Made by a program: the position numbers and the translations under genes. Below are positions 25,695 through 32,498 of a stretch of DNA of 64,000 bases, piece after piece. The first letter of the stretch is position 1, and every line of letters begins with the position of its first letter. Origin of the DNA: Bacteroidota bacterium (lineage in GTDB: Bacteria; Bacteroidota; Bacteroidia; 2-12-FULL-35-15); NCBI GenBank assembly GCA_025963725.1, contig JAOQAE010000003.1, positions 124,001 through 188,000 on the forward strand. Reading direction: 5' to 3'. Below the pieces are notes generated by a model. It ran no database searches and was not told where the DNA came from. It worked only from the letters and a program-made list of their open reading frames with translations.

Positions 25695-25751
25695 TCATTC
25701 CCACTTAAAACGCATGGCCTCCATAGGATCACACATTTTTCTAAAATAAAT

Positions 25752-25782
25752 TTGGTTTATATTATAAACCAGTTTATATTTG
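25752..25782 (+). promoter_or_regulatory. promoter of the TonB receptor cluster
   Basis: TTG at 25752-25754, a 20 bp spacer and TATATTTG at 25775-25782 match the Bacteroidota promoter consensus exactly. The last base of the -7 box is 28 bp from the ATG at 25811. Confidence 0.8.
25754..25778. promoter_or_regulatory. operator-like palindrome inside the TonB receptor promoter
   Basis: GGTTTATA-T-TATAAACC (25754-25770) is a perfect 8 bp inverted repeat. A third half-site, AGTTTATA (25771-25778), follows directly, so there are three consecutive half-sites. They fill the spacer between the -33 and -7 elements and overlap both. A repressor bound here would block transcription. The winged-helix regulator at 29381 in the same gene cluster is the obvious candidate, but this is inference. 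Confidence 0.6.
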
Positions 25783-25810: not shown

Positions 25811-27973
25811 ATGAAACGAATCCTTACGCTGAGTGCATTGATTACACTGCTGTTCCAGGGACTTATCGCACAAACGAAAATCTCCGGGAGAATAACCGAT
25901 CAGAAGAAACAACCGGTACCGGGAGTGAACATTTTGATAAAGGACAGCTATGACGGATCCACAACAGACGCGAACGGGAATTATTCATTCACGGCCAGCG
26001 ATACCGGTGAAGTAACATTGGTTGCGACCATGATCGGCTTTGAGCCGATAGAGAAAAAAGTGCATCTGAAAGGCGGCGAGTTCAGCTACAGCCCGGTGAT
26101 GAAAGAATCGCTCAACGAATTAAAGGTGGTGACCATCTCCGCAGGAACCATTGAAGCCAGCGATGAAAAAAGAACCACCGTATTGAAGCCTCTCGACATT
26201 GTAACCACTGCCAGCGCGCAGGGCGACATTGTAGGCGCATTGAAGACATTACCCGGAGCACAGCAGGTGGGCGAATCGGAAGGCCTCTTCGTACGGGGAG
26301 GCACCGGCACCGAAACAAAAACCATGATCGACGGAATGGTGGTGAATAATCCATTCTTCAGCTCCGTACCCGACATCGCCACACGCGGCCGCTTCTCCCC
26401 TTTTCTTTTTAAAGGCACGATCTTCAGCACGGGCGGTTATTCCGCGCAATACGGACAAGGCATCTCCTCCGTGCTTGCATTGGAAACGCAGGACCTTGCC
26501 GACAGGACCTCCTCCACGCTCGCCATTTCTTCGGTTGGCGTAGGCGGCGGATACAACAAGCTCTGGAAGGAAAAGAACATGAGCGCGGGCTTTGATGTAA
26601 ATTACACCAACCTGCTCCCCTATTTTCAGCTGGTGAAGCAAACACCGGAATACACCCGCGCCCCGCAGTTTTCCGGAGGCTCAATGAACTTCCGTAAGAA
26701 AACCTCCCCTACCGGGATCATCAAGTTTTACGGCTATTTTAACTATGGCGATATGGGAATTAAAACACTCAGCATCGACAGCACCAACGGCTTTAAGAAC
26801 CTGTTCGACCTGAACAACAATAATATTTATACGAACCTCACCTACAAGGAGCGTCTCGGCGAAAAGTTCGTGATCAACATTGGCGCATCCTACAGCACCA
26901 ACATTGATAAAATAAAAACATGGACAGATACCATCCGGTCACAAAGCGACCTTACACAGGGCCGCGTGGTGCTGAGCCGCGGCATCGGAAGGCTTTCCAT
27001 TATCCGCGTTGGCGCAGAATACCAGTATGCATTCGACGGGTTTAAGATCAGCAGCGGAAATGCCTATTATCATTTCCAAAAAACGGTGAACGTGTTTGAT
27101 AACTACACTGCCGGATTCACTGAGGCCGATATTTACATCACGCCAAGGCTGGTGTGGCGTGCCGGAGTACGCGCAGAGAACTCAACGCTGATCAAGAAGC
27201 TGGTGGTTTCCCCGAGGACATCTATGGCTTATAAGATCGGGGAGTTCAGCCAGCTATCCGTTGCTTACGGACAGTTTTACCAGAAGCCCGACCGCGATTA
27301 TTTATTCTACCCGAAGGTTCCGGGATACAGCAAAGCAAGCCATTACATTTTCAACATCCAGCGCGTGGATGATTACCATACGCTGCGTGGGGAGGTCTAT
27401 TATAAAAAATACGACAACCTCACAAGCACGCTTACCGATACTTCCAACAGCGGAAGAGGATATGCGCAGGGACTCGATATTTTCTGGAGGGATAAAAAAA
27501 CTTTTAAAGGCGTTGATTACTGGATTTCCTATACCTATCTCGATACAAAGCGCAAATGGCTGAACTATCCGAAGGAAGTAACTCCTCCGTTTGCAGCAAC
27601 ACATACTGCAACACTGGTGTTCAAGAAGTTTTTCACCAAGCTGAACTTAAGCACAGGATTAACCTACAGCTACGCAACAGGCAGGCCTTATTACAATCCT
27701 AACAACACGGATTTTATGAGCGACCGCACCATCGACTTTCACACAGTGGGTGTGAATGCCGCTTACCTGCGCCAGATCGGCAGATGCTTTGCGGTGCTTG
27801 CCGTATCAGTTGGCAACGTGATCGGAAATGAGCAGGTGTACAGCTACCGCTATTCGTATGACGGAATGCGCAGGAGCGCTGTAGGCCCGCCTGCCAAACG
27901 CTTCTTCTTCGTTGGCTTGTTCCTCTCGTTCGGACAGGACAGGTCGAAGGAAGTGATCGATAATAATAATTAG
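25811..27973 (+). CDS. TonB-dependent outer membrane receptor (carboxypeptidase-regulatory N-terminus)
   Basis: This 720-residue protein has a signal peptide ending in LIAQ (residue ~21). An N-terminal CarboxypepD-regulatory-like domain covers about 24-105 (ISGRITDQKKQPVPGVNILI, TTDANGNYSF). A plug domain follows at about 120-230 (GALKTLPGAQQVGESEGLFV, MIDGMVVNNPFF), then a beta-barrel ending in FFFVGLFLSFGQDR. By family knowledge it imports a substrate across the outer membrane using TonB energy. No SusD partner follows, so a polysaccharide-utilisation role is not supported. The substrate is unknown. It has its own consensus promoter with an embedded palindrome. Confidence 0.92.
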   Translation: MKRILTLSALITLLFQGLIAQTKISGRITDQKKQPVPGVNILIKDSYDGSTTDANGNYSFTASDTGEVTLVATMIGFEPIEKKVHLKGGEFSYSPVMKESLNELKVVTISAGTIEASDEKRTTVLKPLDIVTTASAQGDIVGALKTLPGAQQVGESEGLFVRGGTGTETKTMIDGMVVNNPFFSSVPDIATRGRFSPFLFKGTIFSTGGYSAQYGQGISSVLALETQDLADRTSSTLAISSVGVGGGYNKLWKEKNMSAGFDVNYTNLLPYFQLVKQTPEYTRAPQFSGGSMNFRKKTSPTGIIKFYGYFNYGDMGIKTLSIDSTNGFKNLFDLNNNNIYTNLTYKERLGEKFVINIGASYSTNIDKIKTWTDTIRSQSDLTQGRVVLSRGIGRLSIIRVGAEYQYAFDGFKISSGNAYYHFQKTVNVFDNYTAGFTEADIYITPRLVWRAGVRAENSTLIKKLVVSPRTSMAYKIGEFSQLSVAYGQFYQKPDRDYLFYPKVPGYSKASHYIFNIQRVDDYHTLRGEVYYKKYDNLTSTLTDTSNSGRGYAQGLDIFWRDKKTFKGVDYWISYTYLDTKRKWLNYPKEVTPPFAATHTATLVFKKFFTKLNLSTGLTYSYATGRPYYNPNNTDFMSDRTIDFHTVGVNAAYLRQIGRCFAVLAVSVGNVIGNEQVYSYRYSYDGMRRSAVGPPAKRFFFVGLFLSFGQDRSKEVIDNNN

Positions 27974-28048: not shown

Positions 28049-28082
28049 TGCTCCCCTCCTCTTAGGAGGGGTCGGGGGCGGT
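28049..28082. repeat. solo end of the CACCCC/TAACCCC element
   Basis: TGCTCCCCTCCTCTTAGGAG and the following GGGTCGGGGGCGGT match the right end of the tandem element at 15372-15693. Only this end is present. It lies between the TonB receptor and the next gene, which starts at 28123. Confidence 0.6.
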
Positions 28083-28122
28083 AATATTTAATTTTATAAT
28101 CTACAATCTAAACCAATAAACC

Positions 28123-28764
28123 ATGAAAAAAACAATCTTCATCGCGCTTCTCTCCCTTGCAGGATTCAGCGCTTCAGCACAAAATAAAAAATACATCGCA
28201 GCAATGGAAAAGAACGTTGCAGAGCTTGACACTACAAGGGACGGCTCGAAGCTTCAAAACCTCGCCAACAACTTTGAGCGGATTGCAGGCGCCGAGAAAT
28301 CGGAATGGCTGCCGAGCTATTATGCAGCGTATTGCTATGTGAACATGACCTACACCACCAAAGGCGACATGATCGACACGTATTGCGACAAAGCAGAAAC
28401 ATTCATCAAAAGGGCAGATTCCATCTCTCCGAACAACTCAGAGATCTACACGCTGAAAGCACAGATCGCTTCGGCACGCATCAGCGTAAATCCTATGTCG
28501 CGCGGACAAAAATACGGCATGGAATCGGCCGAGCTGCGTGAAAAGGCGAAATCGCTCGACAAGACAAACCCACGCCCGTACTACCTGGAAGGCACCGCTT
28601 ATTTTTATACTCCCCCGATGTTCGGCGGCGGAAAGGACAAAGCAAAACCATCTTTCGAGAAAGCGCTGGCGATGTTTGAAACCTTCAAGCCTGCAAGCAG
28701 CATCGCACCAAACTGGGGCAAGCGCTCTACCATGTATTTCTTAAATGAATGCGATAAAAAATAG
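28123..28764 (+). CDS. secreted helical (TPR-like) protein of unknown function
   Basis: This 213-residue protein has a signal peptide (MKKTIFIALLSLAGFSASAQ). The mature part looks helical with TPR-like spacing: WLPSYYAAYCYVNMTY, AETFIKRADSISPNNSEIYT, and DKTNPRPYYLEGTAYFYTP. The last third has a Gly/Lys motif, MFGGGKDKAKPSFEKALAMF. Small exported proteins of this form are frequent in Bacteroidota, but I recognise no assigned role. It is followed at 11 bp by a membrane protein and then by regulator genes, so it is probably part of that unit. Two TAAACC repeats lie just before its start (28109-28122). Confidence 0.8.
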   Translation: MKKTIFIALLSLAGFSASAQNKKYIAAMEKNVAELDTTRDGSKLQNLANNFERIAGAEKSEWLPSYYAAYCYVNMTYTTKGDMIDTYCDKAETFIKRADSISPNNSEIYTLKAQIASARISVNPMSRGQKYGMESAELREKAKSLDKTNPRPYYLEGTAYFYTPPMFGGGKDKAKPSFEKALAMFETFKPASSIAPNWGKRSTMYFLNECDKK

Positions 28765-29380: not shown

Positions 29381-29668
29381 ATGTTCAAGGACCTCGATCC
29401 GATATTACATTCACAATTGCGCCTGTCGGTAATGAGCCTGCTGATCAGCGTAAAGGAGGCGGACTTTTCCTTTTTAAAGGAGAAGACGGGCGCCACCGCG
29501 GGAAACCTGAGCGTACAGATCTCCAAATTAGCGGAGGCCGATTACATTACCGTTAAAAAGGAGTTCAGGGATAACTACCCGCTTACCAGCTGCATCATTA
29601 CAAAAAAAGGTATCAAAGCTTTCGAAGATTATGTTGCGGCATTACAGGCCTACATTAAAAAGAATTAG
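29381..29668 (+). CDS. winged-helix DNA-binding transcriptional regulator (HTH_34 type)
   Basis: This 95-residue protein closely follows the winged-helix HTH_34 (PF13601) pattern: LDPILHSQLRLSVMSLL, then ADFSFLKEKTGATAGNLSVQ and ISKLAEADYITVKKEF, with a wing and the C-terminal helix KKGIKAFEDYVAALQAYI. It is related to the MarR/ArsR/PadR group and has no obvious ligand or metal site. It sits 29 bp after the membrane-protein gene. In this setting it is the likely regulator of the cluster; the palindrome in the TonB receptor promoter is a plausible target. Confidence 0.88.
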   Translation: MFKDLDPILHSQLRLSVMSLLISVKEADFSFLKEKTGATAGNLSVQISKLAEADYITVKKEFRDNYPLTSCIITKKGIKAFEDYVAALQAYIKKN

Positions 29669-29729
29669 AGAATTGATGAAGGAGAAATTGGAGAAGGTGA
29701 CGAAATTTAATATTAACCTCAAAACTAAA

Positions 29730-30014
29730 ATGGAAAACAGGGACGAACAATTATGGCGCATTGCGAAAAAGCGTGCGAACTTTAAAAAGCAGCTGGCATC
29801 CTACCTTATCATCAACGGGTTCCTGTGGGCGCTCTGGTTCTTTACTACGGGTGAGCATGATTCCGATAGCCACGAAGTGCCATGGCCAATCTGGAGCACG
29901 CTGGGCTGGGGGATCGGGCTCGCATTCAGCTATTACAATGCATACATGGATAACCGCGAGAGCGATACCATGCGCGAATACCAAAAGCTGAAAGACAAGG
30001 AAGAAGGAAGATAA
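29730..30014 (+). CDS. 2TM domain protein
   Basis: This 94-residue protein (from MENRDEQLWRIAKKRANFK) has two close membrane helices (YLIINGFLWALWFFT and WPIWSTLGWGIGLAFSYYNA) separated by a short polar loop. A basic N-terminus and a charged tail (YQKLKDKEEGR) flank them. This is the 2TM (PF13239) layout, often found next to winged-helix or LytTR regulators in Bacteroidota. The frame is open further upstream and overlaps the regulator gene, but the conserved family start is at the ATG 29730. The role is unknown, possibly membrane tethering or sensing. Confidence 0.85.
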   Translation: MENRDEQLWRIAKKRANFKKQLASYLIINGFLWALWFFTTGEHDSDSHEVPWPIWSTLGWGIGLAFSYYNAYMDNRESDTMREYQKLKDKEEGR

Positions 30015-30042: not shown

Positions 30043-32433
30043 CTATACTTTCAGTGACAGCTGCAGTGCAAATGTACGTGGCGATTCGATCTTCAGTGGG
30101 CGCAGCGAATAGCTGAGGTTCATTACATTGTTCACCACGAACGCCACCCTGAAGCTCTTGCTTACATCCACGGCGATCCTTGCGTCGAACACATGCGTAT
30201 CTGCATGATGCCTGTTCCTGTATTTTTCGATCCCGCTGTGCAGCACAGGCTCGAGGCGGTAGAACGTTAGATCGATATTCTGCATAAAGGTGTAATACCG
30301 CCAGCTTCCGCCGATCGAGATCCTTTTGTAGCTTACCTGCAGATCGGCCTTCGCAATGTGCCTGAACCGGTATTTTAATACATTGTTGGTGGTGTCGGTG
30401 CTGGTGAACGTGTAGGTCATCTGTTGCGGTGTGCTGTCGATCGCGAACACCTGGTGCGGATACACAGCCTGCGGAAGCACATACGTATAGCCTCCAAGAA
30501 TGCTTACCGTAAGGTCCTTCGTAATTTTACCCTCTGCCGCCAGCGATCCTTCGATCCCTCTCACACGCGTATCGCCGGTATTTACGAACTTGAACCCCGC
30601 TGAGAGGCTGTCGTCACCGAACTGATCTTTGTTCTTGTCCCAGAACCCATAAATAAATTCGATCGTATTCCCGTATTCCTGCCAGAAGGCGGCTACATCA
30701 ATAAAGCCCACGAAGTTATTTATTTTAAAGCCCTGCTTAACGCCCACTTCCGTATTCCAGCTGGTTTCAGGCTTCAGCTGCGGGTTTGCGAACACATCCA
30801 GCCCGCCCGTGCGGGTGCGGATGAACTTTTCGGTGATGGTGGGGAAGCGGTATCCCTGCCCGTAGGAATAACGCAGGTAAGTTGCCTGCGCGATCTTTAA
30901 ATTCAACCCCGAGCGGAAGATCGGCTTTGCAACGTATTCCTCATCATTCATTTTAAAGTACTCGCCCCTGAATCCCAGCGAAGCATTCAGCACCCTGAAC
31001 AACTTTTTATCGAGCTGCGTATAGGCCGCATAATTCTGCAGGCGGTTATCGGGTGATACGCCATTGTTGTAAAGATCGGCATGCGAAAAGGTCTGGTTCA
31101 TTACAATGCCGCCTGTTACATTGAGGCCTTCCACATAATTTAATTTTTTGCTGAACTGGTATTCGCTGAAAAGAATACTGGTTTCGTTCGATTGGTTATT
31201 TCCATTGATATTGTTTGCGTACAAGTAACGCGCACGCAGGCTGTGCTTCAGTCCGCCCTTCGCAAAATAATTAATGAAGGGGTCGACGTACAGGATGGTT
31301 TGATCCTGCAGCGTCATTGTTTTCGGGAATGCGCGGTAAATGCCGGAAGTATCGTTGTCCCACACGAGCGAGAAATTGTTGGTCGACTTCATGAAATTCC
31401 CGTTGATCCCGTAATTCAGTGCAGGAATTTTTTTAGGCCGGTACCGCAGGTTAAAATTAACGCGTCCTGTTTTCTCGCCCACCTGCGCCTCGCTGATCGT
31501 GTCGTTCCCCGATCCGAAGGCCGGGTGAATGGATGGCGGCCCGATGTACCCGTGATCATAAATTCCCATTCCGCCAACAACAACATCGAACTGCCCGAAT
31601 TTTTGCGAATGCAGGAAGCTGAGATTTGAAAAATTAGCTGTTCCCTTCCACCACTTCGCGCTGTCGACGGAAGGCGCATCGTACACGCCGGAAGAAACAT
31701 TTACCTTCGTAAGCGGCTTGTCGCGCGGATATGCCGTGCGGATGTTAATGCTGCCGCTCAGGGCGGATGAGCCGTACGTGACTGATGAAGCGCCTTTGAT
31801 GATCTCCACCTGCTCCACATTTTCAACGGGAATAAAATTCCATTCGGGCCGGCCGGCATCACCTGCCAGCACCGGTAATCCATCGAGCAGGATCGCAACG
31901 CGGCTGCCTACCCCAAAGCTGAAACCGCTGCCGCCCCTGATCTGCGGCTCGCCATCAAGGATGTTCAGGCCGGGAGCCTGGTCCAGCGCCGATTTAATAT
32001 TCGCTGAATTTTTATTCTCGATCAGCGCCGGCTTGATCACTTCCATTGAAACGGTGATCTCCTCGAGCCGCTGCTCATACTTACCTGCTGAAATAACGGT
32101 GGTTTGCAGCTGTATGGAATTTGATCTTAGCATTACATTGTATTCCGACACTTTGGAAGAATCGATGTAGACGGTAAATGTATCGGGCTTCATGCCGATG
32201 AATGAGCAGATCATGCGGTGCTTCCCGAGGCTCATCCGCAGCTCATACATGCCGTTCACATCGCTGGCCACGCCGCGCGTCATATCATCGGCATCATAAA
32301 TGGCGGCACCGGTGATCGCTTCCTTTGTGGCCGCTTCCATCACCGTGCCTTTCAGGATGCCGTACGACTGTGCCTGTGCGGGTAATGAAAGGAAGGGAAG
32401 AACGATAAGCAGAAGAAAGAAACTGTTTTTCAT
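30043..32433 (-). CDS. TonB-dependent outer membrane receptor
   Basis: This 796-residue protein has a signal peptide (MKNSFFLLLIVLPFLSLPAQAQ). A carboxypeptidase-regulatory-like N-terminal domain follows (GILKGTVMEAATKEAITGA, DVNGMYELRMS). The plug domain has QIRGGSGFSFGVGSRVAIL, LLDGLPVLAGDAGRPEW and EQVEIIKGASSVTYGSSALS, and the 22-strand-type barrel ends in RTFALQLSLKV. The plug resembles cobalamin/siderophore-type receptors more than SusC, but the substrate is not identifiable. The frame extends 20 codons upstream to 32493, but that part is encoded by a palindromic repeat, so the ATG at 32433 is used. It ends convergently with the 2TM gene, 28 bp apart. Confidence 0.93.
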   Translation of the reverse strand: MKNSFFLLLIVLPFLSLPAQAQSYGILKGTVMEAATKEAITGAAIYDADDMTRGVASDVNGMYELRMSLGKHRMICSFIGMKPDTFTVYIDSSKVSEYNVMLRSNSIQLQTTVISAGKYEQRLEEITVSMEVIKPALIENKNSANIKSALDQAPGLNILDGEPQIRGGSGFSFGVGSRVAILLDGLPVLAGDAGRPEWNFIPVENVEQVEIIKGASSVTYGSSALSGSINIRTAYPRDKPLTKVNVSSGVYDAPSVDSAKWWKGTANFSNLSFLHSQKFGQFDVVVGGMGIYDHGYIGPPSIHPAFGSGNDTISEAQVGEKTGRVNFNLRYRPKKIPALNYGINGNFMKSTNNFSLVWDNDTSGIYRAFPKTMTLQDQTILYVDPFINYFAKGGLKHSLRARYLYANNINGNNQSNETSILFSEYQFSKKLNYVEGLNVTGGIVMNQTFSHADLYNNGVSPDNRLQNYAAYTQLDKKLFRVLNASLGFRGEYFKMNDEEYVAKPIFRSGLNLKIAQATYLRYSYGQGYRFPTITEKFIRTRTGGLDVFANPQLKPETSWNTEVGVKQGFKINNFVGFIDVAAFWQEYGNTIEFIYGFWDKNKDQFGDDSLSAGFKFVNTGDTRVRGIEGSLAAEGKITKDLTVSILGGYTYVLPQAVYPHQVFAIDSTPQQMTYTFTSTDTTNNVLKYRFRHIAKADLQVSYKRISIGGSWRYYTFMQNIDLTFYRLEPVLHSGIEKYRNRHHADTHVFDARIAVDVSKSFRVAFVVNNVMNLSYSLRPLKIESPRTFALQLSLKV

Positions 32434-32466
32434 AAGGTCTAAATAAAATGGCAATCTTATTCTTTC

Positions 32467-32498
32467 GGCAGATTGCTTCGCAGACGCTCGCAATGACG
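32467..32498. repeat. half copy of the GTCATTGCGA repeat
   Basis: CGGCAGATTGCTTCGCAGAC and GCTCGCAATGACG match the right half of the complete element at 59946-60024. It lies just upstream of the TonB receptor gene and creates a false N-terminal extension of its frame. Confidence 0.65.

Follow-up and report, generated by a model that had tools for sequence, protein, structure and literature searches.

A palindromic promoter element that accompanies an HTH_34 winged-helix regulator in Bacteroidota and varies with residue 45 of the regulator

Results

The gene run and its promoter

The window, by which we mean the whole stretch of 64,000 nucleotides of Bacteroidota DNA that was analysed, contains a run of genes on one strand that begins with a TonB-dependent-receptor-like gene (ATG at 25811) and includes a gene for an HTH_34 winged-helix regulator (Table 1). 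The receptor scores above the Pfam cut-off for CarbopepD_reg_2 and reaches 21.4 bits for Plug (cut-off 23.9), no Pfam beta-barrel model matched it at E ≤ 0.01, and relatives at E ≤ 1e-60 were found in 12 of 35 other genomes of the same genus. The 213-aa protein matched no family in Pfam or NCBIfam. For the membrane protein, whose family is present in 104 of 108 HTH_34 loci, the AlphaFold model (pLDDT 79.6) had no match in the PDB (best E 1.0). The regulator itself scores 100.9 bits against PF13601 (gathering cut-off 27), and its AlphaFold model (pLDDT 95.7) is a winged helix in which residues 40-52 form the recognition helix, which holds residue 45, with 1ub9 as the top Foldseek match (TM 0.85). 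The start of the 2TM-domain gene was picked by eye within a longer open reading frame (29631-30014).

Table 1. Features of the gene run and of its promoter, in window coordinates
Feature	Position	Strand	Basis or remark
-33 box TTTG	25751-25754	+	window sequence and column counts
Core palindrome, predicted HTH_34 dimer site, GTTTAT-ATT-ATAAAC	25755-25769	.	conservation and covariation with residue 45
Half-site-like third copy AGTTTATA, overlapping the -7 box	25771-25778	+	window sequence
-7 box TATATTTG (consensus TAnnTTTG)	25775-25782	+	window sequence and column counts
TonB-dependent-receptor-like protein, 720 aa	25811-27973	+	Pfam CarbopepD_reg_2 plus weak Plug
Protein of 213 aa, TPR-like on visual inspection, with a start resembling a signal peptide	28123-28764	+	adjoins receptor gene in relatives
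Membrane protein, 191 aa, six predicted helices	28776-29351	+	usual HTH_34 partner
HTH_34 winged-helix regulator, 95 aa, V45	29381-29668	+	Pfam PF13601, E 4.5e-29
2TM-domain protein, closing the run	29730-30014	+	Pfam PF13239, E 1.2e-13; neighbour in relatives

Several other features surround or interrupt the run. A GC-rich inverted repeat, CCCCTCC...GGAGGGG at 28053-28071, separates the receptor gene from the 213-aa gene; no T run follows it directly, and it could influence read-through. Within 300 bases before the palindrome, GCTCCTACGGAGC occurs twice on the plus strand (25502 and 25553) and once inverted (25675), in the manner of REP elements, and in G018 the corresponding gene likewise has a similar GC-rich inverted repeat ahead of it. 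Beyond the last gene, a second TonB-dependent receptor (30043-32493, minus strand), with both plug and barrel above cut-off, is convergent with the run, and a homologue of it follows the operon in several relatives. Scans for sigma-70-type promoters and terminators stayed at chance level, and no known RNA element in the window reached its Rfam gathering score.

A preliminary description of this DNA had placed a palindrome within the -33/-7 promoter of the receptor gene and an HTH_34 gene downstream in the same direction, and the window sequence bears out both placements. The promoter at 25751-25782 reads TTTG-GTTTATATTATAAACCAGTT-TATATTTG; both of its boxes are those of the Bacteroidota sigma-A promoter, for which an excerpt of PMC7366714 gives the consensus TTTG/TAnnTTTG and an excerpt of PMC9723704 the TAnnTTTG element, and the 20 nt between them are here occupied by the core of the palindrome, whose full 17-mer stretch is GGTTTATATTATAAACC (25754-25770). 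Each base of the -33 TTTG is kept in 55-66 loci by column counts over 75 loci. The 17-mer has a single match in the window at ≤3 mismatches (0.21 expected), at least one such match arises in 17 of 100 shuffled windows, and half-sites are not enriched in the window (42 single half-sites at ≤1 mismatch against 39.5 expected). A comparison across genomes was therefore needed: taken from the window alone the palindrome is weak evidence for a regulatory site, and it is strong evidence once genomes are compared.

The core is retained with the membrane-protein/HTH_34 pair within the genus

The HTH_34 protein and the receptor were each sought in the same 59 genomes. All nine same-genus genomes that carry the receptor together with the membrane-protein/HTH_34 pair (G000, G018, G009, G028, G032, G003, G010, G016 and G026) hold the exact core GTTTAT-N3-ATAAAC at the same promoter place, with flanks that vary among them. 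The exact core is found in none of the four genomes that have the receptor and the 213-aa gene and lack the pair (G013, G021, G014 and G005; three of these also have the 2TM gene): the site is one base off in G014 and two bases off in G005, which retains an HTH_34 remnant, and no core-like site was found in G013 or G021. Among genomes with the pair and no intact receptor, the core is exact in G015 and G035 and has one mismatch in G027 and G023, while a contig end cuts the locus in G025. The HTH_34 gene of G028 is interrupted (L046, 6061-6257) beside an operator that is still intact, perhaps a recent loss.

The predicted operator and HTH_34 are linked across the class

A profile of 16 rows (E ≤ 1e-22) detected HTH_34 proteins of the close type in 103 of 395 class genomes. 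The preliminary description had named absence of the palindrome from loci that keep the regulator as the result that would speak against it, and the opposite was seen: at ≤1 mismatch the core is present in 84 of the 105 orthologous HTH_34 loci examined, some of them with short upstream sequence, and it is exact in 53, whereas 29 permuted half-sites reach at most nine loci at ≤1 mismatch and at most two exactly, and spacers other than 3 are found in 0-4 loci.

A separate search of the same number of class genomes (395) with the operator-promoter pattern (≤1 mismatch), which was blind to HTH_34, matched once in each of 61 genomes; 59 of these sites are on the HTH_34 strand, 613-5119 bp upstream of that gene, and 2 are elsewhere. 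The distance is under 900 bp at 38 of these loci, 900-2000 bp at 6 and greater at 15. The pattern occurs in 59 of 103 HTH_34-positive genomes versus 2 of the 292 other genomes (Fisher p 3e-39, relatedness ignored), and a reversed control pattern gave one match. Looser or variant sites account for many, not all, of the 44 of 103 HTH_34-positive genomes that the strict pattern leaves unmatched, and a convincing operator site was not found in G216, G052, G060, G066b or G363. With the patterns used there is one site per matching genome, and at ≤2 mismatches the palindrome occurs at one place only in the window's own genome; a large regulon is therefore rejected.

A second set of 80 loci, many of them from Chitinophagaceae and at least nine shared with the class set (L167-L172, L197, L217 and L245), gave an operator call in 72, at 0.6-5.9 kb upstream; the call at 2.85 kb in L185 is doubtful, an exact core lying there at 1.5 kb, and seven of the eight loci with no call hold less than 4.6 kb of upstream sequence.

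These gene orders bear on what the operator serves. It is quite possible, if not the reading we favour, that this is not an import unit at all and that regulation centres on the membrane-protein/HTH_34 pair, with the receptor as a passenger: in many families the membrane-protein gene follows the operator directly and no receptor is present, and at other loci a receptor and other genes intervene. Against this, 57 of the 72 second-set loci with a call have a receptor relative in the interval from operator to HTH_34, as do ten class genomes outside the window's genus. Moreover, in six f15 genomes only (L041, L078, L090, L105, L106 and L130), the gene that follows HTH_34 is preceded by a second operator copy; this copy lies some 300 bp beyond the HTH_34 start, has no TAnnTTTG box and, in five of the six, is separated by 11-12 bases from the ATG of the following gene. 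The gene behind it matches the 213-aa protein in three of the six (G189, G159 and G128), followed in G189 by a receptor match, and by this comparison the second operators connect the regulator with receptor-type genes through a different gene arrangement. The preliminary description's idea of an import unit that encodes the repressor regulating it is supported, the operator being tied to HTH_34 in place and in letters, with one correction: judged by its distribution, the predicted operator belongs to a two-gene unit of membrane protein and HTH_34, from many of whose operons the receptor is absent, and a TonB-type receptor is optional cargo.

Bases 4-5 of the predicted operator change together with residue 45

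Several loci that have no standard core carry symmetric variants of it at the equivalent promoter position, and bases 4-5 of both operator arms follow residue 45 of the regulator: GTTTA accompanies V, I, A or R, GTTAA or GTTAC accompanies L, and GTTTG accompanies H or T. Among 128 loci, 119 were scorable. All 11 with L45 have A at base 4 in both arms, and G stands at base 5 in both arms in 3 of 3 H45 loci and 1 of 1 T45 locus; of 104 loci with other residues, none is switched in both arms and 10 are altered in one. A scan over protein columns found that column 45 sorts 119 of 119 loci, with 0.652 bits of mutual information (next best column, 0.348 bits). The operator scan does not favour this rule, because bases 4-5 entered it only through symmetry.

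The rule was fixed before new genomes were searched. Among the loci found afterwards, 4 of 4 testable L45 loci and the single H45 locus agreed with it, and 17 of 17 scored loci with other residues were unswitched; a contig end cuts a fifth later L45 locus, and the later L45 loci include some that nearly duplicate ones found before: G813 closely repeats G127, and G675 the G136 group. Left out of this test were 13 new f11 loci (V45 or A45, ≤1.5 kb upstream) that gave no operator call, three further V45 loci with 1.5 kb upstream (L349, L358 and L360) gave none either, and searches of small orders for further switched loci brought few new genomes. On a tree built with column 45 left out, residue class and operator class each change four times, and the four independent pairs that bear on the code all agree (sign test p 0.125); the covariation comprises only three to four independent switches. 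G758 (V45, GTTTAC in both arms) sits inside the L45 group and would on that placement have reverted to the earlier state, but the AU test does not reject a tree with all L45 loci in one clade (p 0.13).

The third half-site and the TAAACC copies

What had been described as a triple half-site has a third member that is kept as xTTTA across the standard loci and overlaps the -7 box. This copy appears in switched form in none of the 15 loci whose arms have switched (11 L45, 4 H45 or T45), and it still reads xTTTA in 8 of these 15, whose arms are GTTAA, GTTAC or GTTTG. As an equal operator arm it is rejected on these counts, and because the switched form is absent from all 15, the third copy in the window-type promoter is more plausibly assigned to the -7 element. 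Given that (G/A)TTTA is kept at the corresponding place in all six f15 second operators, which have no TAnnTTTG box, it may also have a role outside the -7 box. The two TAAACC copies noted before 28123 do exist, at 28109-28114 and 28117-28122, but among ten same-genus orthologues examined only G018 keeps one of them, and as extra operators they are rejected for want of conservation.

Distant HTH_34 subfamilies

A 71-row profile (E ≤ 1e-18) matched HTH_34 proteins in 206 of 395 phylum genomes, and of 52 distant or paralogous loci scanned, 38 gave an operator call with a scan that prefers TTT cores. Common among them is CTTTG-N5-CAAAG, which has the arm spacing of the window type and lies, like it, upstream of HTH_34 before another gene, but begins with C where the window type begins with G. 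The HTH_34 paralogues of the window's genus (L048-L050) have CTTTG-N5-CAAAG-TA-CTTT sites upstream in 3 of 3 loci examined. When close and distant loci are pooled, C is the first base of both arms in 30 of 32 loci whose regulator has D40, and G in 115 of 124 with another residue; this apparent relation of residue 40 to base 1 is a lead only, since it is confounded with subfamily and, for the distant loci, depends on the 38 calls of that TTT-preferring scan. Ten distant V45-H46 proteins face TA/TA (3), TG/TG (3) or mixed (4) bases 4-5, three V45-S46 loci have TG/TA, and as stated the residue-45 rule fails outside the close family.

Discussion

We consider it very probable that the HTH_34 protein encoded at 29381 uses the palindrome at 25755-25769 as its operator, that this protein is a local autorepressor of its operon, and that its residue 45 reads bases 4-5. 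Comparison of sequences has established the place of the site, its genome-wide tie to HTH_34, its symmetry and its joint change with residue 45; the predicted operator lies in the promoter of the regulator's own gene run and is conserved with the regulator, which is the layout of an autorepressor. According to this model an HTH_34 dimer would bind GTTTAT-N3-ATAAAC between the -33 and -7 boxes, with recognition-helix residue 45 of the protein reading base pairs 4-5 of each half-site, and would keep RNA polymerase off, so repressing its own operon, a putative single transcript of the receptor, the 213-aa protein, the membrane protein, HTH_34 and probably the 2TM protein. The membrane partner may sense something and thereby relieve the repressor. 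We infer repression because the operator lies between the promoter boxes and the regulator gene is self-linked.

MerR-type activators also bind in the spacer between promoter boxes, and HTH_34 might bind the operator and activate instead, bending the 20-nt spacer as they do. We regard this as unlikely: the site is indeed in the spacer, but both boxes look like those of a normal promoter, the fold is a winged helix whose nearest solved relative is PH1061, followed mostly by MarR types, and no MerR model in Pfam or NCBIfam matched the protein at E ≤ 0.01. Still less probable, to the point of being hard to credit, is that the palindrome is bound by some global regulator other than HTH_34, with HTH_34 as a mere neighbour; the place of the site would suit any repressor, yet there is one site per genome, beside HTH_34, and its letters track HTH_34 residue 45 and no other column as well. 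That the palindrome is a coincidence of an AT-rich promoter, as its matches in 17 of 100 shuffled windows might allow, can practically be dismissed, being contradicted by the conservation, permutation and covariation results.

The proposed autorepressor belongs with HTH_34 (PF13601) proteins such as PH1061 of Pyrococcus horikoshii (1ub9), which it resembles in family match and fold and which, among solved structures, is closest to it in sequence (E 1e-5); what sets the window system apart is the proposed operator, the membrane partner and the specificity residue. Open-licence literature yielded no operator or regulon for the HTH_34 family, PF13601 or PH1061, nothing related to a CTTTG-type motif among the matches listed, and nothing relevant to winged helices, Bacteroidetes and palindromes among the matches listed. 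MarR repressors have palindromic operators and self-linked genes. The DNA-binding fold of MarR-type repressors, for example HpaR in complex with DNA (7el3), is similar, and MarR-type chains are among the Foldseek matches, but those among the matches listed are 128-180 aa long against 95 aa here, and, unlike MarR-type repressors, the window regulator has a membrane protein as its usual partner. No MarR family model matched the HTH_34 protein: at E ≤ 0.01 Pfam returned HTH_34 alone, and the one NCBIfam match, to an ArsR/SmtB model, scored far below that model's cut-off. Despite the MarR-like winged helix, we make no assignment to the MarR family.

More broadly, and this we hold to be doubtful, membrane-protein/HTH_34 modules across the phylum may share the operator layout and a code in which residues 45-46 specify bases 4-5 and residue 40 specifies base 1, D40 going with C. 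In such modules the membrane protein would be a sensor that holds or releases the repressor, in a one-site, membrane-coupled switch whose cargo varies by lineage and is here an outer-membrane receptor. The distant loci, in which residue 45 by itself does not account for bases 4-5, lower the probability of this reading.

For the close family, the predictions cover an operator, its place in the promoter, an autoregulated gene set and one base-linked residue, natural variants are available for either side, and a rule of protein-DNA recognition becomes testable by one point change. Receptor operons with no assigned substrate would thereby gain a defined, if predicted, switch.
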